A stretch of DNA of 37,514 nt, taken from Pseudomonadota bacterium. Lineage in GTDB: Bacteria > Pseudomonadota > Alphaproteobacteria > Acetobacterales > Acetobacteraceae. The notes beneath the pieces were generated by a model. It ran no database searches. It was given only the letters and a program-made list of their open reading frames with translations, and was not told the DNA's origin. The translations under genes and the position numbers were made by a program. Where the stretch lies: assembly GCA_021781835.1 (NCBI GenBank), contig JAJXWD010000026.1, positions 1 through 37,514 on the forward strand, written 5' to 3'. Shown one piece after another: positions 8,148-17,726 of this stretch (position 1 is the stretch's first letter; each line of letters begins with the position of its first letter).

Positions 8148-9008
8148 ATGTCCATTTCACGGCCAATGCCCGCCCTGCCGCAAGCGCCGCGATTCGTGTT
8201 CGCGGTGGCGGGGGCGGCGCATGCGGCCAAGCTGGCACCGGCGCTGGGCGCGCTGGGGCGGGCCACGGCGCATGAGATTTTGGTGGTGCAGCGGGCTGGC
8301 GACCCGCCGGCGCCGCACCCCAACCGGCTGGAGGCCGAACCGCCCGCCGGGCTGAGCGACCATCAGGCGGCGATATGGCTGAAAACCGGCCTGCACAGGC
8401 TGGTCGGGCTGGAGCGGCCCTTTTGCTATCTCGACTCCGACGTGCTGGCGCTGGGGCCCGGGATCGAGGCCATTTTTGGCCAGACGCCCGGCCCGCTCGC
8501 CTTTGCCCCCGACCACGCGACCCTCGACCAGTTTTCCCCCTATGCCGTGCGCTGCGGCTGCCGGCAGGCGTGCGGGCATCTGCGCGAGGCGCTGTTTTGC
8601 CAGTGGGGGGTGGATGTGGCGGGGGATTTCCGGCTGTGGAATGGCGGCGTGTTTGTCGCGCGCGCGGGGGCCGAGGCGGTGCTGGACGAATGGCACAAGC
8701 TGGCCACCCAGATTTTCGCCGAGCCTTACTGGTTTACCCGCGACCAGGCCGCGCTGGCGGCGGCGGTGTGGCGGGCCGGGTGGCAGGCGCGCCCTACCCT
8801 GCCCCCGCGCTTCAACCTGATTCTCGATTGCTGCCGGGGCATCGCGCCCGACGCGCGGGCCACCACCCCGCCCGACCGCCTGAGCGTGACCCCCCGCCAC
8901 CTGCCTTTGCCCAAGGCCGAGGCCGTGCATCTGATCAATAACGGGGTCGGCCGCACGGGCTGGCCGCATTGGGACCATCTGGCCCGTTTTTTGGAGCTTA
9001 GCCCATGA
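8148..9008 (+). CDS. GT-A-like glycosyltransferase with DSD motif and cysteine cluster
   Basis: The 286-residue protein resembles GT8-like retaining transferases. It has a Rossmann-like start (FVFAVAGAAHAAKL), LKTGLHRL, then CYLDSDV whose DSD (residues 96-98) would bind metal and nucleotide sugar, and LWNGGVFV at about 163-170. An unusual motif CGCRQACGHLREALFC (Cys136, 138, 142, 151 and His144) lies between the DSD and the NGG segment. No signal peptide is seen, so it probably acts in the cytoplasm. Its stop overlaps the next start as ATGA. The same C-terminal region recurs in the radical SAM protein at the end of the cluster. The donor and acceptor are unknown, and no strong ribosome site decides the start. 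Confidence 0.75.
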   Translation: MSISRPMPALPQAPRFVFAVAGAAHAAKLAPALGALGRATAHEILVVQRAGDPPAPHPNRLEAEPPAGLSDHQAAIWLKTGLHRLVGLERPFCYLDSDVLALGPGIEAIFGQTPGPLAFAPDHATLDQFSPYAVRCGCRQACGHLREALFCQWGVDVAGDFRLWNGGVFVARAGAEAVLDEWHKLATQIFAEPYWFTRDQAALAAAVWRAGWQARPTLPPRFNLILDCCRGIAPDARATTPPDRLSVTPRHLPLPKAEAVHLINNGVGRTGWPHWDHLARFLELSP

Positions 9009-12004
9009 GCCATCTGCCCCCTGTTCATACCATGTGGCTGGGCGAGCGCCTCTCGGGGCTGGAAAAATTGACCCTGGCCTCGTTTGCCGGCCATGGCCAC
9101 CAGGTGACGCTGTGGGCCTATGACGACTTGACCGGACAGGCGCCCAAAAACGTCACCCTGCGCGATGCCGAGGCGATTTTTCCGCGCGCGCGGATTTTGC
9201 CCAAGACCAATGCCGAGCCCGGCGTGGGCGTGGGGGTGGGCAGCGTGGGGGGCGTGTTTTCGGACCTGTTCCGCTACCGCGTGCTGCATGAGATGGGCGG
9301 CATCTGGGCGGATATGGATGTCACCGCGCTCCGCCCGCATCTGTTCGACGGCGATTACGCCTTTCGCCCGCACCGGCTGGGGGCGGTGGGCAGCATCATG
9401 CAGGCCCCCAAGGGCAGCCCGTTTCTGGCCTGGGTGTATGAGCAGACCGAGGCCATCGCGGGGCCGGAAACGCCCTGGCTGGCGCCCATCCATATCCTCA
9501 ATGAGGGCATCAGGCGGTTCGGGCTGGAGGGCATGATCGTCGGGGGGATGAGCAATTTCGACCAGTGGGGCGAGATCCGGCCCTTCATCGAGGGGCATAG
9601 GCCGTTTCCGCGCCCCTGGTTCGCCGTGCATTGGATGAACGAGCTGTGGCGCACGCTCGCGGCCCAGGGCGGCAAGCTCGATGGCCGGACCCTGACCGGG
9701 CTGGCGCTCGACAAGGACCGCCCGCCGCCGGGCTCCATGCTCCATGAACTCTATCGGGCCTACGGGCTGGCGGATCTGTACGAGCCTTACAAGACACATC
9801 TGGCCCGCCCCGCCGCGCTGAGCCACGAGGCGCCAAGGGCCGCCAGCCGCGTTGACATGCTGCTGCCCGCCCTGGCGCCGGGCGGGGCCGAGCGGATTGT
9901 GCTCGACATATTGGCCGGGCTGCCCAAGGAGACCACCGCCCGGCTGCATGTGCTGGGCAGCGGCGCGCACGATCTGGCGCCGCCCGCCCGCCTGGCGGTG
10001 CACCGGCCGCACGGGCCGCGCATGGCCCGGCTGAAGGCCATTGCCCGCGACGTGACCGAGGCCGGGGGCACGCTTTATACCCATCTCATCCGCCATGAGG
10101 ATCTGGAGGTGCTGTGGGCGCAGGGCGTGCGCACGGTGCCGGTGCTGCACAATGCCCGGCCCGGCTGGGCCGATCCGCCGGCCTGCTACAACACGCCCCT
10201 GGTGCCGTTTGTGGTGGCCTGCGCCGATGCCGTGCGCGCCCAGGCCGTGGAAAGCGGCCTGACCCGGCCGGTTTTGACCCTGCGCCACGAGCTGCCCACC
10301 CTGCCCGACCCCGCCGCCCTGGCCAAGGCGCGCGCCGAACTGCGGGCGCGCCACGGCATTGGGGCGGAGATTTTGCTCATCGGCATGGTCGGGCAGTTCA
10401 AGCTGCAAAAATCCCATGCCCGCGCCGCCCGCGTGCTGGCGGCGGTGAAGGCGGCGGGCGCCAAGGCGCGGCTGCTGGTGCTGGGCGGGTGGGACCATGA
10501 ATGGGGCTCGGGCCGCGCGGCCTATGAGGCCTTCATGCGCGCGGCGGTGGAGGCGGGGGTGGTGGCCGATGTCATCTGCCCCGGCGCCATCGCGCCAGCT
10601 CTGCCTTATTACGCGGCGTTCGACGTGCTGCTGAACTGCTCGGCCTATGAGGGCTACTCCATCGCCATGCTCGAGGCCTTGCAGGCCGGGTGTCCGGTGG
10701 TGGCCAGCCGGGTGGGCGGGGCGGCGGAAATACCCGGAGATGCCACGCTCATCGACGACCCGGACGATATCGGGGCGTATGCGGAGGCGATTTTGGCGCG
10801 CGCCACCGGCGGGGCGCGGACCTTGCCGCGCAAGCCCTACACGCCCGACCTGCTGCCCACGCTCTGGCGGCTGCTGCCCGCCGTGCCGCGCGCGCTGGAT
10901 GAGACCCATACCGGCGCGCTGGTCTTGACCCAGGCGCTCGAGCGCGGCGGGCCGGCAAGCTCGCTGGTGCGGCTGGCCGGCGCGCTGCCGGCCCAGCGCA
11001 AGCTGCTGGTGGGGGTGTTCGGCCCCGTGCTGGAGCCCCACGCCCAGGCGCTGCGCGCCAGCCACACCCCGCTGCTGGCCGGGCCCGCGCACGGCGTGGC
11101 CGCCCAGGCCGAGACAGTGCTGGCCTGGGTGCGGCGCCACCATCCGCGCACGGTTTGTTTCTGGAATCTGGCGCCCGAGCTGAAGCTGCTGCTGGCCAAG
11201 CTGTTTGAAACCTCGGGCGTGAGGCTGCTCGATGTCAGCCCCGGGCCGATGCTGTTTGACGAGCTGGCGGACGCCGCCCCGTTCGCCCAGCGGGCCGGGC
11301 TTTCGGGGGCGCAGTATCTGGCCCGGCTGGACGGGTTTGTGAGCCTGCATAAAAGCGGCGCCGCGCCCAGGCCCGCGCGCAATGTGGTGGCGCCGCTGGG
11401 CGTGCCGGCCCCGCCCGCCTTTGTGCCCCTGCCCCCGCCCTGGGCGCTGCCCGCGCGCGGCTTTGACCCGGCGCTGGTGGTGGGGACGGTGTGCAGGCTG
11501 GTGCCGGACAAGAAAATAGAAACCCTGCTGCAGGTGGCGCGGCGGCTGCGCAAGCTGGTGCCGGGCGCCGTGCTGATGGTGGTGGGCGGGCCGGATGGGG
11601 CCTCGGTGCCTTATGCCCAGGACATGATGCGCGCCGCCGAGGCCGAGCCGGGGATAAAATTTGTCGGGCCGTGCGATGACCCGCTGCCATATCTGCGGCT
11701 GTTTCGGGTGTTTTTGCTCACCGGCCGCCGCCAGGGCTGCCCCAACGCCTCGCTCGAGGCCATGAGCCTGGGGCTGCCCGTGGTGGCCGAGCCCGATGGC
11801 GGCGTGGCCGAGCAGGTGATCAATGGCGAGACGGGGTATTTGGCCGCCACCCCCGAGACCATGGCCCGGCGGGTGGCCGCGCTTTTGCGCGACGAGCCGC
11901 TGCGCGCCAGGCTGGGCCGGCAGGCGAGATCGCATTGCCAAACGTATTTTTCCATTGGCGCAATGGCTGAACGATATGATAAATTATTATTCACGGGAGG
12001 CTGA
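9005..12004 (+). CDS. Three-domain glycosyltransferase (GT32-like + GT4-like + GT4-like)
   Basis: The 999-residue protein strings three transferase modules together. Residues about 1-275 look like a GT32/DXD sugar-binding domain, with HTMWLGERLSGLEKLTLASF, the helix FSDLFRYRVLHEMGGIWADM and the metal motif DMD. Residues about 280-600 form a GT-B (GT4-like) domain with LAPGGAERIVLDIL and the late nucleotide-sugar site NCSAYEGYSIAMLEALQAG. Residues about 635-999 form a second GT4-like domain with LVVGTVCRLVPDKKIETL and NASLEAMSLGLPVVAEPDGG. No membrane segment is evident. It probably adds several sugars to one acceptor in the cytoplasm. It is translationally coupled to the preceding transferase. 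The substrate is unknown. Confidence 0.85.
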   Translation: MSHLPPVHTMWLGERLSGLEKLTLASFAGHGHQVTLWAYDDLTGQAPKNVTLRDAEAIFPRARILPKTNAEPGVGVGVGSVGGVFSDLFRYRVLHEMGGIWADMDVTALRPHLFDGDYAFRPHRLGAVGSIMQAPKGSPFLAWVYEQTEAIAGPETPWLAPIHILNEGIRRFGLEGMIVGGMSNFDQWGEIRPFIEGHRPFPRPWFAVHWMNELWRTLAAQGGKLDGRTLTGLALDKDRPPPGSMLHELYRAYGLADLYEPYKTHLARPAALSHEAPRAASRVDMLLPALAPGGAERIVLDILAGLPKETTARLHVLGSGAHDLAPPARLAVHRPHGPRMARLKAIARDVTEAGGTLYTHLIRHEDLEVLWAQGVRTVPVLHNARPGWADPPACYNTPLVPFVVACADAVRAQAVESGLTRPVLTLRHELPTLPDPAALAKARAELRARHGIGAEILLIGMVGQFKLQKSHARAARVLAAVKAAGAKARLLVLGGWDHEWGSGRAAYEAFMRAAVEAGVVADVICPGAIAPALPYYAAFDVLLNCSAYEGYSIAMLEALQAGCPVVASRVGGAAEIPGDATLIDDPDDIGAYAEAILARATGGARTLPRKPYTPDLLPTLWRLLPAVPRALDETHTGALVLTQALERGGPASSLVRLAGALPAQRKLLVGVFGPVLEPHAQALRASHTPLLAGPAHGVAAQAETVLAWVRRHHPRTVCFWNLAPELKLLLAKLFETSGVRLLDVSPGPMLFDELADAAPFAQRAGLSGAQYLARLDGFVSLHKSGAAPRPARNVVAPLGVPAPPAFVPLPPPWALPARGFDPALVVGTVCRLVPDKKIETLLQVARRLRKLVPGAVLMVVGGPDGASVPYAQDMMRAAEAEPGIKFVGPCDDPLPYLRLFRVFLLTGRRQGCPNASLEAMSLGLPVVAEPDGGVAEQVINGETGYLAATPETMARRVAALLRDEPLRARLGRQARSHCQTYFSIGAMAERYDKLLFTGG

Positions 12005-12022
12005 GGCCCGTTGGAGAATGGC

Positions 12023-12757
12023 ATGACCCAAAAGAAGCCAGGTGAGACAACGGACAGCAAGCTGGGCCTGACCCGCCGGAGCCTGCTGGGCGCGGGGCTG
12101 ATGTTGCCGGTGAGCTTCGCGCACAGCGCCGAGGCCGAGGGACCGGCGACGGTGGCTTATGGCAGCGGCGAAACCTATGCGCCGGACAGCAACGTGACCA
12201 CCACCGACCAGGGCGATGGCGGCGGGGCGGGCAGTGTCGGCCAGGGAGCCGAGCCGGCCAATTCGGCGCTGGGCCAGTTGCAGAATATGACCAATGGCTC
12301 CGAATCTCTGAACCAGGGGTTTTTTGGCGGCGGCGGCGGGCCGGATGATACGACCGTGGATGTGACACCGCCCGAACCGCCCACCCCGACGGCCGTGCCC
12401 GTGCCCATGCCCGATGAGAATACCCAAGACAGCAACGACGCGCCCTTTGACCAGCCGCCGCCCGCGCCGCCCACCGCGGATGAGGATAATGGCGACGAGG
12501 AGGATCTGCAAAGCCAGTATGACGACGCCCAGGCACAGGCGGACGCCGCCGCCGCCGCCGCCGTTAGCGCCGCCGCCGCCTGGGACGCCGCGCGCAACAG
12601 CCACACCACCCCGCCCGACCAGTATAATCAGGCTTACCAGAGCTACCAGCAGGCCCAGTCGGCCGAGCAGTGGGAGCGCTATAAGGTCGACCGGATCGAG
12701 GCGGCGATAAAGGCCAAGAAACCGGTTATTTATGTGCTCGACGGAGGCAGCCAATGA
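12023..12757 (+). CDS. Tat-exported low-complexity protein of unknown function
   Basis: The 244-residue product is unrecognised. Its N-terminus LTRRSLLGAGLMLPVSFAHS has the twin-arginine pattern (RRSLLG) plus hydrophobic stretch of a Tat signal, cut near HSAEA. The mature part is rich in Gly, Pro, Ala, Asp, Asn and Gln. It has a GGGGGPDD tract, a Pro/Thr/Val stretch, an acidic EDNGDEEDL patch and an Ala-rich helix, and ends KKPVIYVLDGGSQ. There are no cysteines. The start is the ATG preceded by GGAGA at 12013-12017; an upstream TTG is less likely. Its stop overlaps the next start (ATGA). As an exported, disordered, Ser/Thr/Asn-containing protein inside a transferase cluster, it could be a glycosylation target, which is inference. 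Confidence 0.65.
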   Translation: MTQKKPGETTDSKLGLTRRSLLGAGLMLPVSFAHSAEAEGPATVAYGSGETYAPDSNVTTTDQGDGGGAGSVGQGAEPANSALGQLQNMTNGSESLNQGFFGGGGGPDDTTVDVTPPEPPTPTAVPVPMPDENTQDSNDAPFDQPPPAPPTADEDNGDEEDLQSQYDDAQAQADAAAAAAVSAAAAWDAARNSHTTPPDQYNQAYQSYQQAQSAEQWERYKVDRIEAAIKAKKPVIYVLDGGSQ

Positions 12758-13776
12758 CCCGCATGCTCATGGCCTCCGCCCTGCTCTGCGGGATGCTCGG
12801 CGCCCCCGCCATCGCCGCGGCCCAGGCCCTGACCGGCTGCCCGGCCCACTCGGACGCTTACAAGATCGAGGATACCGCCAGCGCCACCATCATTCATTGC
12901 CGCTGCGTATCCGGCTTTGGCGCCCAGGGCGGCCAATGCCTGCCGCCAGCCCCCCCGCCCAGCGCGCCCAAACTAAGCTGCGCGGTGGCCCAGGCGCGGA
13001 TCGCGCGGGATCTGGCGCAGATCCAGTATCAGCGCCATCTGGCGACCCAGAACCAGGCGCAATTCGCCGATGCCCGCGCCCTTGGCGGCCATGCCGCCAA
13101 GGATATGCTCACCGCCGCCGGCGAGTTGACCCTTAGCGTCGCCGCCGCCGAGGATGGGGAGGAGACCAAGGCCATCGACTCGCTCGAAGAGCAGACCACG
13201 CAACTCGAGGCGCAAATTCCCAACATCACCGACAAGGACGAGCTGCAGACGGCCATGAGCAATTTGCAGCAGCTCAACGACCGGCTCTCCAACGTGCAGG
13301 CCAATGCCGACCTCAAGGAGCTGGTGCGCAACGGCATGGATGCGCGCGAGAGCTGGGCGCTGGGCCGGAACGCCCTGCATGACGGCTTCACCGCCGCCGC
13401 CAGCGTCAATGACAAGATCGCCCAGCAGCTCGAAAATCCGCAATTTCGCCAGATCGTGCTGAACGAGGAGCCGGGGGCGGAAAAAGAAGATGAAAACAGC
13501 ACGCTCTGGGAGCACACCGCCGACGTGCTGAACAGCGTGGTCTCGGAAACCGCCGACAATGCCAAGTTTTTGTCGCATTACTCGGCCATCACCGGCCCGA
13601 CCATCACCTGGACCAGCTTTACCATCGACGCGGCCTATGCCGATCTTGAGCTGTGGTTCGCCGCCCAGAGCGCCGATCAGGCCGACCAGAATGCCGGCCA
13701 GCTCGCCCGCGCCGCCGGGGTGATGCAGGACACGTTCAAGCACGACATGCAGGCCCGCCAGACCTGCACGCCGTGA
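12754..13776 (+). CDS. Secreted helical protein with an EGF-like cysteine motif, unknown function
   Basis: The 340-residue product has a cleavable signal peptide (residues 1-24, ending AIAAAQA). The mature N-terminus contains CRCVSGFGAQGGQC, which fits the EGF-like pattern C-x-C-x2-G-[FYW]-x(4-8)-C. A proline linker follows. The rest is long, mostly helical and probably coiled-coil, with several Gln/Glu/Leu-rich segments between residues about 75 and 200. It ends QARQTCTP. It overlaps both neighbours by 4 bases (ATGA before, GTGA after), so it is translated as part of the cluster. No family was recognised. It probably acts in the periplasm or at the surface, and could be a partner or substrate of the cluster enzymes. 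Confidence 0.7.
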   Translation: MTRMLMASALLCGMLGAPAIAAAQALTGCPAHSDAYKIEDTASATIIHCRCVSGFGAQGGQCLPPAPPPSAPKLSCAVAQARIARDLAQIQYQRHLATQNQAQFADARALGGHAAKDMLTAAGELTLSVAAAEDGEETKAIDSLEEQTTQLEAQIPNITDKDELQTAMSNLQQLNDRLSNVQANADLKELVRNGMDARESWALGRNALHDGFTAAASVNDKIAQQLENPQFRQIVLNEEPGAEKEDENSTLWEHTADVLNSVVSETADNAKFLSHYSAITGPTITWTSFTIDAAYADLELWFAAQSADQADQNAGQLARAAGVMQDTFKHDMQARQTCTP

Positions 13777-15494
13777 CCATAGACGCCCCCGCCTACGACG
13801 CCACGCGCGATTTCTCCCGCAAGGCCGTGCGGGCGCTGTGCTACGCCGCGCATAACAACCTGTATTTCGACCGGCTGGGGCGGGTGCGCGCCTGCTGCTG
13901 GAACTGGAGCAAGCCGGTTGGCCATATCGGCACCCAGCGGCTCGACGATATATGGCAAGGCGCCCAGGCGGCGCTGATGCGCGCCGCCCTGGAGCGCTAC
14001 GAGCTGCCCGAAGGGTGCGATTTTTGCCGCTTCCAGACCGGCGAAGGCTGGATGGGCGGCGCGCGCATGCGCCAGTTCGACCATTTCGACGTACCCCAAA
14101 CCCCGCCGCCCTGGCCCCAGCAGATGGAGTTTTCGCTCTCCAACGCCTGCAACATCGAATGCGCGATGTGCGATGGCGAACATTCCTCGGCCATCCGCGC
14201 CCACCGCGAGGGGCTGCCCGCCCAGCCGAAACTGTACTCGGACGCGATTCTCGAACAGTTCCGCCCCTATTTACCCCACCTCGCCCAGGCGAAATTTCTG
14301 GGCGGGGAGCCGTTTCTCTCGACCGAGAATTTCAAGATCTGGGACATGATGATCGAGGAGGGGCTCTCGACCATCTGCCACGCCACCACCAACGGCACGC
14401 AATATAACGCGCGCATCGAGCGGGCGATGGAGCGGCTGCGCTTTGGCTTTGCCGTCTCGCTCGACGGGGCACGCAAGGAAACCATCGAGCGTGTGCGCTA
14501 CGGGGCGAAATATGAGGAGGTGATGGCCAACCTCAAACGCTTCCGCGCCTATGCGCGCGAGCGGCGCACCACGTTTTCGCTCACCTTTTGCCTGATGCGC
14601 CCGAACTGGGCGGAGTTTGGCGAGTTTTGCGAAATGGCCGATGCCTGGGGCGTGCGCGTGGCCATCAACACCGTGTTCCGGCCGGTGGGCTACTCGCTCT
14701 ACACCCTGCCCGCGCCAGAGCTGCGCCGGGTGGTGGACGCCCTGGAGCGCGAGGCGCCCCGGCTGGAGAGCAGCCTGACGCTGAACAAGCGCGTGTGGTT
14801 TGACGAGGTGGAGCGGCTGCGGCGCAAATGCGCGGCCATGGAGGCCAATGCCGCGCCGCCACCGCCCGGCCCCGCCCGGCCCGCGCGGCCCACGCCCCTG
14901 GCCGACCGCGCCATTGTGCTCGGCATAGAAACCCAGGCCCAGGCCGAATATGGCTGCATCAATCTGAATTTTTTGCGCGGCTTCTCAAAGGCGACGCTGG
15001 TGGCGGCAACGGGCGGCTGCCACAGCCCCGATGCCGAGGCCCACGCCGCCGATGCGCTGAGCCTGCGGACCAGCTTGTTTGACCTGGTGCCCGCAAGCGC
15101 CGCGCGGGTGCTTTATGTGGGTGCCAACCAGCCCCAGCCCCGCCATGACATCGACACCCAGCTCGACCGGTTCACCCCCCCGCTCGCCTTTGCCCGCGGC
15201 GGCCGCACCATCGACGAGGCGAGCGCCACGCTGGTGAGGTGCGGCTGCCAGGACACAAGCTGCGCCCATGCGCGCGAGGCGCTGCTGTGTCTGCTCGATA
15301 CCGACATCGCCGATTGCGCCTGGGAGGTGCCCGACCCTTCGCGCTTTGCCGCCACCCGCGATGCCCAGCCCCTGCTCGATGACTGGGCGCGCCTGGCCCG
15401 CCTGGCCAGTGCCGAGGGCTATTGGGCCGACCCGGTGCTGGCCGGGCTGATCGCCATGGTGTGGCGCCAGGGTTTGGCGGTGGGAACGTTATAG
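13773..15494 (+). CDS. SPASM-like/radical SAM protein with a C-terminal degenerate glycosyltransferase-like domain
   Basis: The start is the GTG that overlaps the previous stop, giving 573 residues. Residues about 18-90 look like a SPASM segment placed before the core (FDRLGRVRACCWNW, then GHIGTQRLDDIW and CDFC; Cys23, 41, 42, 82, 85). The radical SAM core (about 115-345) has SNACNIECAMC with the CX3CX2C iron-sulfur cysteines 126, 130 and 133, then LGGEPFL. A proline linker leads to residues about 374-573, which resemble the cluster's first transferase: LRTSLFDLV, TPPLAFA and CGCQDTSCAHAREALLC match, but YLDSDV has become LYVGAN, so the metal motif is lost. Substrate and reaction are unknown. 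Modification of a sugar or exported protein is inferred. Confidence 0.8.
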   Translation: MTIDAPAYDATRDFSRKAVRALCYAAHNNLYFDRLGRVRACCWNWSKPVGHIGTQRLDDIWQGAQAALMRAALERYELPEGCDFCRFQTGEGWMGGARMRQFDHFDVPQTPPPWPQQMEFSLSNACNIECAMCDGEHSSAIRAHREGLPAQPKLYSDAILEQFRPYLPHLAQAKFLGGEPFLSTENFKIWDMMIEEGLSTICHATTNGTQYNARIERAMERLRFGFAVSLDGARKETIERVRYGAKYEEVMANLKRFRAYARERRTTFSLTFCLMRPNWAEFGEFCEMADAWGVRVAINTVFRPVGYSLYTLPAPELRRVVDALEREAPRLESSLTLNKRVWFDEVERLRRKCAAMEANAAPPPPGPARPARPTPLADRAIVLGIETQAQAEYGCINLNFLRGFSKATLVAATGGCHSPDAEAHAADALSLRTSLFDLVPASAARVLYVGANQPQPRHDIDTQLDRFTPPLAFARGGRTIDEASATLVRCGCQDTSCAHAREALLCLLDTDIADCAWEVPDPSRFAATRDAQPLLDDWARLARLASAEGYWADPVLAGLIAMVWRQGLAVGTL

Positions 15495-15834: not shown

Positions 15835-17112
15835 CTAAAACAGATAGCGATATTCGAGCGTCATATCCCACTGGTGCATGGAGAGCTTGACGTAATGCCC
15901 GGGAATGGCGCCGCTGGGGGTGACTTCCTGGCCGGTGACGGTGGCGGTGGGCACGTAGAGCAAGGCGGCATCGAGCACCGAATGGGCGCCGAATTGATAG
16001 CTGCCGCCGCCGCTCAGCTCATCGGTCACCACGCCGGGGGCCAGAATGTTGAGCGTGACATCCTTGGACGAGATGGGATTGGTGTTGTGGGCATAGCCCG
16101 CCCGCAGGGTGAGCGCGGGGGTGACACGCCACTCGGCCGCGAGGGCGCCGACATCGACATCGTGCCAGCCAAAACCCGGCGCGCCGGCAAGGCCGAACTT
16201 GACCCCCTGATACAGGCTGGGCGTGGCGATGGAGGTGATGTCTGAATAGAAAATATGGCGGTAATCGGCCATTAAAGTAAGGGTGGGCAGGGCATCCCAG
16301 GCGATGCCGGCCGAGAGGCTGGCGGGAATGTCGAAGCTGCCGCCATCGGCGAACAAGCCCTGATACTGGCTGAATTTGGTCATCCAGATGGGGGTTGAGC
16401 CGTCCAGCGCGAAACGGAGGGCGGGGGTGGCGCTCCAGAGCGCGCCAAGCCGCAGGCCACCGCCATACGAGTAGGACAGGCCGCGATTGGTGAGGTTGCC
16501 GGGGCTGGAGGAAATGGCCGAGAAGGCCGCCAGGCCCTCGGCGTCGAAATACTGGATGGCCAGAATGGGGGCGATGCCCAGGGACAGGCTGCCATACCGG
16601 CGGGCATAGGCGGGCGAGATGAAGAACTGGCCGAGATTGACCCCGGCCTTGCCCGCGCAATAAACCCCGCTGCCGCCGCCGCAGGCGGCATTGGCCACGC
16701 CGGCGGGGTAGAGCGTGTTCATGCCGCCATTGCCGTAGAGCGCGAGGCCCCAGGCGGCATTGGCGCCGATGGGGCGGCTGAAGGCGGCGTTGGGCATGGC
16801 AAACGCATTCCAGCCGCTGCTGACATGACCGGGCGCGACAAAGCCCGTGCCGCCCGTGGCCGTGTAGCCGCGAAACGGCATGAACAGCGACACGCCCAGC
16901 TCGGCGGTTTCGCCCAGCTGGGTGAGGCCGGCCGGATTGTTGGCGATGGTCATGGCGGTTTCGGGGTTGGCGGCGCCGGCGGAGGCCAGCGCCTTCTGGA
17001 CGGCATCATAGCCCGGCTGGAAATAGCCCTGGGTCGCGTGGGCGGCCGGGGCGAGCGCAAGCACCGCGCATAGGCCGGCGGCAGCCGCGCGGCGCGGGAG
17101 CGAGGAAGGCAT
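15835..17112 (-). CDS. FadL/TodX-family outer membrane transport protein
   Basis: The chosen ATG is preceded by GGAGA at a good spacing and gives 425 residues with a clean signal peptide (PSSLPRRAAAAGLCAVLALA, cut after AHA). An upstream ATG at 17130 overlaps the previous stop and would add six residues. The mature start GYFQPGYDAVQKALASAGAA and the following ANNPAGL segment are the hallmarks of the FadL/OmpP1 barrel family, where NPA lies in the plug region. The protein ends in Phe (EYRYLF), typical for barrel insertion. The family imports hydrophobic compounds. Its place at the end of a sulfur-related gene series suggests uptake of a hydrophobic sulfur compound, which is inference. Confidence 0.83.
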   Translation of the reverse strand: MPSSLPRRAAAAGLCAVLALAPAAHATQGYFQPGYDAVQKALASAGAANPETAMTIANNPAGLTQLGETAELGVSLFMPFRGYTATGGTGFVAPGHVSSGWNAFAMPNAAFSRPIGANAAWGLALYGNGGMNTLYPAGVANAACGGGSGVYCAGKAGVNLGQFFISPAYARRYGSLSLGIAPILAIQYFDAEGLAAFSAISSSPGNLTNRGLSYSYGGGLRLGALWSATPALRFALDGSTPIWMTKFSQYQGLFADGGSFDIPASLSAGIAWDALPTLTLMADYRHIFYSDITSIATPSLYQGVKFGLAGAPGFGWHDVDVGALAAEWRVTPALTLRAGYAHNTNPISSKDVTLNILAPGVVTDELSGGGSYQFGAHSVLDAALLYVPTATVTGQEVTPSGAIPGHYVKLSMHQWDMTLEYRYLF

Positions 17113-17126
17113 GTGAAGTCTCCGTT

Positions 17127-17726
17127 TCATGTCTTGGGCGGGTCTTCTCCCGCCTGTGAAAGCTTGTGAGCCAGGGTGATGCGCCGCCGGCTCGGCAGAC
17201 GCAAGCGCCGGTCCTCCAGCCGGGCCGGGGCGTTGCCCAGCCGCGCGTCGCGCGCATGCAGAAGGGCGGCGATCTCATCGTGATAAAGCCGCAGCAAGGC
17301 CGCCAGCCACTGCCCGACATCGCGCGGGGCGGCATGGCCGAGCGCGGGTTCGGCCAGCTGGGCGATGAGGGCCGCGGCCGGTTGCCAGCACTCGCCCGTG
17401 ACCCAGCGGTTGGTGGTGAACAGGCGCAGCGGCAGGCCCTTTTCATCGACCGACAGCGCGATGAGGTGCGAGAATTGCCCCCCAGGCGCCGGCACGAAAA
17501 TGTGGAAATGCCCGTGCTCGGCGCGCGGGCGCTGGGTCTGGTTGTGGGTGTGGTAGTAAAACCGCCAGCCGGAGACGGGGTCTGTGGCGTCCTGGTGGGG
17601 GTAATGGGCCCATTCGACAAACCCGCCCTCGCCCGCCAGCAGACGGGCGGGGGCGCATTGTTTGGCGGCCGCCCAGGCGGCGATCTGGTCGACGATGAAG
17701 GTGCCGGTGGCAAGGTCAAAGGGCAT
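17127..17726 (-). CDS. Conserved protein of unknown function with His-rich core
   Basis: The 199-residue soluble protein has no signal peptide. Its centre carries FVEWAHYPHQDATDP, FYYHTHNQTQRP and EHGHFHIFVP, with several histidines close together that could bind metal. It resembles a small family of uncharacterised proteobacterial proteins, possibly DUF6969, a name I recall but cannot check. The second half is helical (LAALLRLYHDEIAALLHARD) and the C-terminus is basic. It starts 9 bases after the stop of the NPCAP-repeat gene and ends within the ATGA that could start the FadL-like gene, so it belongs to the same transcript. No function is assigned. Confidence 0.72.
   Translation of the reverse strand: MPFDLATGTFIVDQIAAWAAAKQCAPARLLAGEGGFVEWAHYPHQDATDPVSGWRFYYHTHNQTQRPRAEHGHFHIFVPAPGGQFSHLIALSVDEKGLPLRLFTTNRWVTGECWQPAAALIAQLAEPALGHAAPRDVGQWLAALLRLYHDEIAALLHARDARLGNAPARLEDRRLRLPSRRRITLAHKLSQAGEDPPKT

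Follow-up and report, generated by a model that had tools for sequence, protein, structure and literature searches.

A five-gene cassette linking probable glycosyltransferases and a radical SAM enzyme to two predicted exported proteins in a genus of the Acetobacteraceae

What could be made by a gene set that encodes two predicted glycosyltransferases, two predicted exported proteins and a radical S-adenosylmethionine (SAM) enzyme? The question is raised by five genes, here termed g1 to g5, on contig JAJXWD010000026.1 of a Pseudomonadota bacterium of the family Acetobacteraceae (assembly GCA_021781835.1). They lie in a stretch of 37,514 nucleotides (contig positions 1 to 37,514, forward strand), referred to below as the window. 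A preliminary description of the window had placed five plus-strand open reading frames at 8148–15494, joined by 4-base overlaps at three of the four junctions. All five are present at those coordinates, with ATGA at g1/g2 and at g3/g4, GTGA at g4/g5 and an 18-base gap between g2 and g3. Comparison within the genus resolves them into a core and an accessory pair of enzymes. We tentatively read the whole as a genus-restricted cassette for the cytosolic glycosylation of g3, a predicted substrate of the twin-arginine translocation (Tat) pathway, and perhaps also of g4, with g5 oxidizing or epimerizing a sugar.

A conserved g2-g3-g4 core with a variable enzyme pair

The genus set comprised 38 genomes, the window's own included. 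The order g1-g2-g3-g4-g5 is found in three of them, namely the window, genome G140 (locus L036) and genome G068 (locus L037), and a fourth genome, G170 (locus L038), carries the rearranged set g5-g1-g2-g3-g4′ followed by an extra gene. Locus L039 in genome G151 has g2-g3-g4 without g1 or g5, while locus L067 in genome G167 has g2 on a contig that ends 85 bases after it. Counted singly, g2 occurs in 6 of the 38 genomes and is followed by g3 and g4 at all five loci where the contig continues. g4 occurs in five genomes, of which G170 has its N-terminal module alone, and g5 in four at expectation values (E) below 1e-120, with only weak matches (E 8e-15 or worse) in five others. Neither g1 nor g5 has a match in G151 and G167. 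In both of these a Stf0 sulfotransferase gene diverges from g2, the two being 83% identical to each other, and no Stf0 gene was found in the stretches examined of the window, L036, L037 and L038. Since the two g2 loci without g1 and g5 carry Stf0 instead, we take g1 and g5 to be the variable part. Hence, g2-g3-g4 is a conserved, closely spaced core and g1 and g5 are a variable accessory enzyme pair.

The tight junctions recur along with the gene order. There are 4-base overlaps at g3/g4 and g4/g5 in L036 and L037, and at g5/g1 and g3/g4 in L038. The g1/g2 overlap is 4 bases long in L036 and in L037, where the starts were chosen by homology, and by 1 base in L038; the g3/g4 overlap in L039 depends on the chosen start. 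The gap between g2 and g3 measures 18, 18, 9, 12 and 8 bases in the window, L036, L037, L038 and L039, respectively. All five genes are under purifying selection, with ratios of nonsynonymous to synonymous substitution rates (dN/dS, Nei-Gojobori) of 0.22–0.36 in all ten comparisons with G140 and G068, g3 giving 0.26 and 0.36 against these two genomes. These ratios indicate that g3 and g4, which match no family above its cut-off, are real genes.

Family and phylum searches were made on draws of genomes and not on whole groups. Searched as single sequences, g3 and g4 each matched 3 of the 150 family genomes drawn, and these belong to this genus. A g4 profile matched 7 of 397 genomes, four of them clearly and all of this genus; the three weak matches, in other family genomes (E 0.004–0.009), were taken as chance, and the one that was read proved unrelated. 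A g1 profile matched 3 of 249 family genomes, all of this genus, and 1 of 398 genomes in the phylum draw, which was its own. g5 matched 14 of 150 family genomes; 11 of these lie outside the genus, and their matches are weak (E 1e-10 or worse). None of these searches therefore placed g3 or g4 outside the genus, g3 having been sought in whole genomes as a single sequence only. A phage origin of the two was rejected: no relative was confirmed in viral contigs and neither matches a PHROGs family at E≤0.01. g4 also had no match in plasmids at E≤0.01 (g3 was not searched there). The expectation that the five genes recur together thus holds in three genomes and, rearranged, in a fourth, but they are not one indivisible unit, since g2-g3-g4 stands alone in G151 and enzymes like g1 and g5 occur without relatives of g3 or g4 in Methylomagnum and on a contig of the IMG/VR viral collection.

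Table 1. Genes of the cassette and their domains and motifs, in window positions
Feature	Coordinates	Strand	Description
g1	8148..9008	+	DSD glycosyltransferase, probably GT-A / GT8-like, 286 residues, without family model
Cys/His motif of g1	8553..8600	+	C136-x-C138...C142-x-H144, then C151
g2	9005..12004	+	Three-module glycosyltransferase, 999 residues
g2N, N-terminal DXD module (DMDVT)	9005..9799	+	Borders approximate
g2 middle GT4 module	10328..10825	+	
g2 C-terminal GT4 module	11477..11932	+	
g3	12023..12757	+	Tat-signal protein with Thr/Pro segment, Cys-free, 244 residues
Conserved Thr/Pro segment of g3	12329..12394	+	Consensus DDTTVNxxPPEPPTPxA; candidate modification site
g4	12754..13776	+	Sec-signal protein, 340 residues: four-Cys module, then region modelled as helical
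Four-Cys (EGF-like) module of g4	12838..12939	+	Cys29, 49, 51, 62
g5	13773..15494	+	N-terminal twitch, radical SAM and pseudo-glycosyltransferase domains
g5 twitch/auxiliary-cluster domain	13839..14027	+	C23, C41, C42, C82, C85; SPASM at residues 23–85
g5 radical SAM core	14133..14636	+	C126xxxC130xxC133; Radical_SAM at residues 121–288
g5 C-terminal g1-like domain	14952..15491	+	Without DSD or NGG

Upstream of the cassette in the window is a same-strand LacI-type regulator gene, its end (7982) 165 bases before g1, and downstream lies a convergent gene for a FadL-type outer-membrane protein (15835–17130, minus strand). The FadL-type gene adjoins a DUF6969 gene (PF22308, 179.7 bits; 15835–17726 for the two). 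LysR and DUF1028 genes upstream of the cassette are common to G140 (L036 4629–6318) and G068 (L037 14891–16575) and have no match in the window, so the surroundings of the cassette differ between the window and these genomes. A scan for promoters and terminators gave matches at chance level only.

The enzymes

The enzyme g5 had been described as a SPASM-like radical SAM protein whose C-terminus resembles g1, and both statements are borne out. It passes the Pfam cut-offs of Radical_SAM (46.4 against 29.5 bits) and SPASM (27.7 against 21.5), and its tail aligns with g1 at 41.8% identity over 98 residues (E 6e-15 and 2e-13 in the two directions). The best NCBIfam match is NF033640 (N_Twi_rSAM), at 145.7 bits over residues 22–336 and below the cut-off of 170. 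The cysteines of the auxiliary domain and of the core are invariant in five of five homologues. When g5 was searched against the sequences of solved structures, two BtrN chains were the top two of seven matches (E 2e-7 and 3e-7), in the C-terminal part of BtrN. BtrN is described as oxidizing an aminocyclitol by two electrons (PMC9012708); the radical SAM enzymes NeoN and HygY are described as epimerases (PMC10991966). Because the auxiliary domain of g5 is, among solved structures, nearest to that of BtrN, and NeoN and HygY are epimerases, the chemistry of g5 is by analogy most likely a dehydrogenation or an epimerization at a sugar carbon.

In all three g5 tails both DSD and NGG are lost and the C-x-C...C-x-H pattern is kept. 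The tail is 67% and 47% identical to those of G140 and G068, the radical SAM part reaching 80% and 66%, and the g5 of G170 has no tail. Lacking the motifs of an active glycosyltransferase, the tail is seemingly a dead copy of g1. Since the Cys/His motif is kept, it is best read as a domain that holds a glycan or serves for docking.

g1 itself was introduced as a DSD transferase, and the motif stands. D96, D98 and N165-G166-G167 are invariant in five homologues, including that of Methylomagnum, and the motif reads DSD or DTD across the set. No family was matched in Pfam (E≤1), NCBIfam (E≤0.1) or PHROGs (E≤0.01), and there was no match of note among the sequences of solved structures. The predicted models of g1 and g4 were both poor (mean predicted local distance difference test score, pLDDT, 45.6 each) and the fold search was for that reason made with the g1 model only. 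This low-confidence model gave 894 matches at E≤10, the best at E 0.033 and none at E≤0.001; weak as they are, 40 of the 50 matches listed are UGGT or glycogenin (families GT8/GT24). We tentatively class g1 as a probable GT-A, GT8-like glycosyltransferase. Four residues of its Cys/His motif, C136, C138, C142 and H144, are invariant in all eight rows compared (five g1 homologues and three g5 pseudo-transferase domains). Of the three modules previously assigned to g2, the two GT4 modules score above their Pfam cut-offs and the DXD module falls just under that of Gly_transf_sug (21.5 against 23 bits).

Relatives of g1 and g5 also lie together outside the genus. On the Methylomagnum ishizawai plasmid NZ_AP019784.1, a g1-like domain (39% identical) is fused to GT4-like modules, with a twitch radical SAM enzyme (37%) encoded 2.9 kb away. 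On the IMG/VR contig (L066) one gene joins a g1-like domain to a g2N-like module, and 9 bases further on comes a twitch radical SAM gene. Both loci contain an asparagine-synthase gene. A wider stretch of the IMG/VR contig (L068) adds GT9 and GT2 genes and two more SPASM radical SAM genes, so that in spite of the viral collection it looks like a bacterial glycan locus; it holds no g3 or g4. Beside the fusion gene, on the opposite strand, are two more twitch-type radical SAM genes (L066 5383–7845), one of them truncated where the contig stops. In each of the six g1 loci examined, four in the genus and two outside it, a twitch radical SAM gene is no more than 5 kb away. Radical SAM genes of the g5 type are frequent in IMG/VR, where 101 were confirmed by tblastn; among the best 80 of these 101 loci, one, the L066 contig itself, carries a relative of g1 and g2N. 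Another IMG/VR contig (L112 3110–14964) holds a run of radical SAM genes, seven of ten scanned proteins matching Radical_SAM (five above the Pfam cut-off) and three having SPASM N-terminal. In a radical SAM tree of 86 rows, in which long branches were flagged and 18 of 97 candidate loci have no row (duplicate, short or without a hit), none of 500 shuffles clustered as well as the observed linkage to g1. A single clade of g1-linked enzymes is unsupported: the tree needs three changes, two of them forced by starred branches.

The exported proteins

A Tat signal carries (S/T)RR followed by a signal-like stretch. This arrangement is present in all five g3 homologues, with RR invariant, making g3 a predicted Tat substrate. 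g3 has no Pfam match at E≤1. In the Thr/Pro segment, T110, T111, P117, P119, T121, P122 and A124 are invariant in five of five homologues, and this segment is our candidate acceptor site. Serine makes up 5–9% of the post-signal part in the five homologues, which have no long Ser-rich repeats. In G170 the g3 reading frame (L038 6778–8049) has ∼190 extra residues ahead of the Tat motif, possibly reflecting another start or a separate gene.

g4 begins with what reads as a signal of the general secretory (Sec) type. The EGF-like motif ascribed to it is a conserved four-cysteine pattern, invariant in five of five homologues, but EGF- and TIL-type models stay below cut-off and the likeness to EGF is a resemblance only. 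No Pfam model is matched above a cut-off, TIL_2 reaching 14.5 bits against 24 and cEGF, on the G170 homologue, 15 against 26.6. A profile built on the signal and module finds five genomes of the 38 in the genus set (E<1e-31), and the match after these is at E 0.006. In the G170 homologue (L038 8046–8828) the module alone is kept and is joined to a seemingly unrelated C-terminus, so that it may move between exported proteins by shuffling. The extra G170 gene (L038 8825–9610) has a signal-like start and a 4-base overlap with g4′; neither it nor the G170 g3 reading frame has a Pfam match at E≤1.

Possible products of the cassette and comparison with known systems

We propose that g2, working in the cytosol, would build a short glycan at the Thr/Pro segment of g3 and possibly on g4 as well, that g1 would add a sugar, and that g5 would oxidize or epimerize a sugar carbon while its dead g1-like domain holds the glycan or docks on g1. 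g3 would then leave already modified via Tat and g4 via Sec as its partner; at loci without g1 and g5, Stf0 may supply the tailoring instead. No segment of g1, g2 or g5 is strongly hydrophobic (the 19-residue Kyte-Doolittle mean peaks at 1.58), which suggests that they act in the cytosol. Modification there followed by export would be the simplest route for the enzymes to meet g3, and Tat export of a protein without cysteine or evident cofactor is consistent with modification before export. A sugar built and radically modified on exported proteins, as the preliminary description supposed, fits the layout. We hold our proposal to be possible, at somewhat under even odds. Its more specific form, a Tat-coupled system in which a dedicated multi-domain transferase glycosylates an exported protein in the cytosol and the sugar is rebuilt by a radical enzyme steered by a dead copy of its partner transferase, is rather doubtful.

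Several observations weigh against glycosylation of the exported proteins. g3 is not strikingly rich in Thr or Ser (7% each in the mature window protein), no relative of g1 has a known function, and the hydropathy measure is blunt, missing the Tat signal of g3 too (1.04). In Methylomagnum the g1- and g5-like enzymes sit with asnB, UbiA, polyprenyl synthetase, GT39 and ATP-binding cassette (ABC) transporter genes, and the 25-kb stretch holds no relatives of g3 or g4. In the radical SAM tree the L069 enzyme, sister to that of L066, has no g1 in the stretch examined, and the g1-linked enzymes are not one clade; because of both, the pairing of g1 with a radical SAM enzyme may have more than one origin or may have been exchanged repeatedly. 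Finally, an exopolysaccharide-type locus starts 3.6 kb beyond g5 in G068. It (L169 339–8636 and L037 714–1676) encodes a GT8, a flippase-type Polysacc_synt_3 (Wzx-type), a Wzz/kinase-type and two GT4 proteins, together with a 476-residue protein without family that reads like a polymerase.

These loci are what one would expect if the cassette made and tailored a surface or lipid-linked glycan that g3 and g4, themselves unmodified, assemble, bind or anchor, and the G068 locus shifts the balance slightly in that direction. The two glycan loci that have g1 and g5 relatives without g3 or g4 point the same way, as does the resemblance of g2 to polysaccharide-type GT4 models. However, g2 is tied to g3 and g4 wherever its contig continues, arginase-family, LysR and permease genes separate the G068 g5 from the exopolysaccharide-type locus, and no flippase, polymerase or lipid-carrier transferase was recognized in the stretches of the window, L036, L038, L039 and L067, where open reading frame lists were read without a dedicated search (L038 and L067 being short contigs, and the rest of the genomes not searched for flippases or polymerases). 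We regard a surface glycan as about as likely as modified exported proteins.

It is improbable that g5 is a peptide maturase that cross-links or epimerizes residues of g3 or g4 while the transferases glycosylate the same protein. g5 is weakly similar to mycofactocin, PapB and StsB models, but the scores are far under cut-off, the nearest solved auxiliary domain is that of BtrN, and the g1-like tail argues for a glycan substrate; moreover g3 and g4, at 244 and 340 residues with export signals, are not short leader-core peptides. The patchiness of the cassette in the genus and its differing flanks would also be expected if the five genes had come together by chance on a variable part of the chromosome and shared no pathway. 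With the order kept in three genomes, linkage in a fourth, purifying selection on all genes and g1-, g2N- and g5-like genes linked independently in L066, such a chance grouping is very unlikely. Anti-phage defence is not favoured: two pVip (viperin) models in PADLOC match g5 (E 3.5e-9 and 4.8e-6), which we read as generic radical SAM likeness, and g1 to g4 have no PADLOC match at E≤0.01.

Radical SAM sugar chemistry is known mainly from antibiotic pathways. Were a radical SAM enzyme to alter the sugar of an exported protein, this chemistry would extend to a glycoprotein, and the use of Tat by a protein with no evident cofactor would have an explanation. The fusion to a dead transferase offers a testable idea for how a radical enzyme finds its glycan, and the g1/g5 and Stf0 loci form a natural contrast between tailoring modules that share one core. 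The parts are of known kinds; their combination, the fusion to a dead transferase and the g2-g3-g4 core were not recognized in the literature searched, as judged by titles and the openings of abstracts.

Compared with GT-A transferases of GT8 and GT24 (glycogenin and the catalytic domain of UGGT), g1 shares the DSD motif and a weak fold match but has no family match and carries the invariant Cys/His motif. g5 resembles N_Twi_rSAM in having an N-terminal auxiliary-cluster domain followed by a CxxxCxxC radical SAM core, and differs in its score under the cut-off and in the pseudo-transferase tail outside the matched stretch. With BtrN, NeoN and HygY, twitch radical SAM enzymes of aminoglycoside chemistry, it shares the CxxxCxxC core and one auxiliary Cys-rich domain; unlike theirs, that of g5 lies N-terminal to the core, after which comes a g1-like domain devoid of catalytic motifs. 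Intracellular glycosylation before export is described as established for serine-rich repeat (SRR) adhesins such as GspB, which use accessory Sec export, and the likeness to our proposal is in the logic only, cytosolic transferases acting before export (PMC5578698). The present cassette differs from that system in having no Ser-rich repeats, a Tat signal and a radical SAM enzyme.

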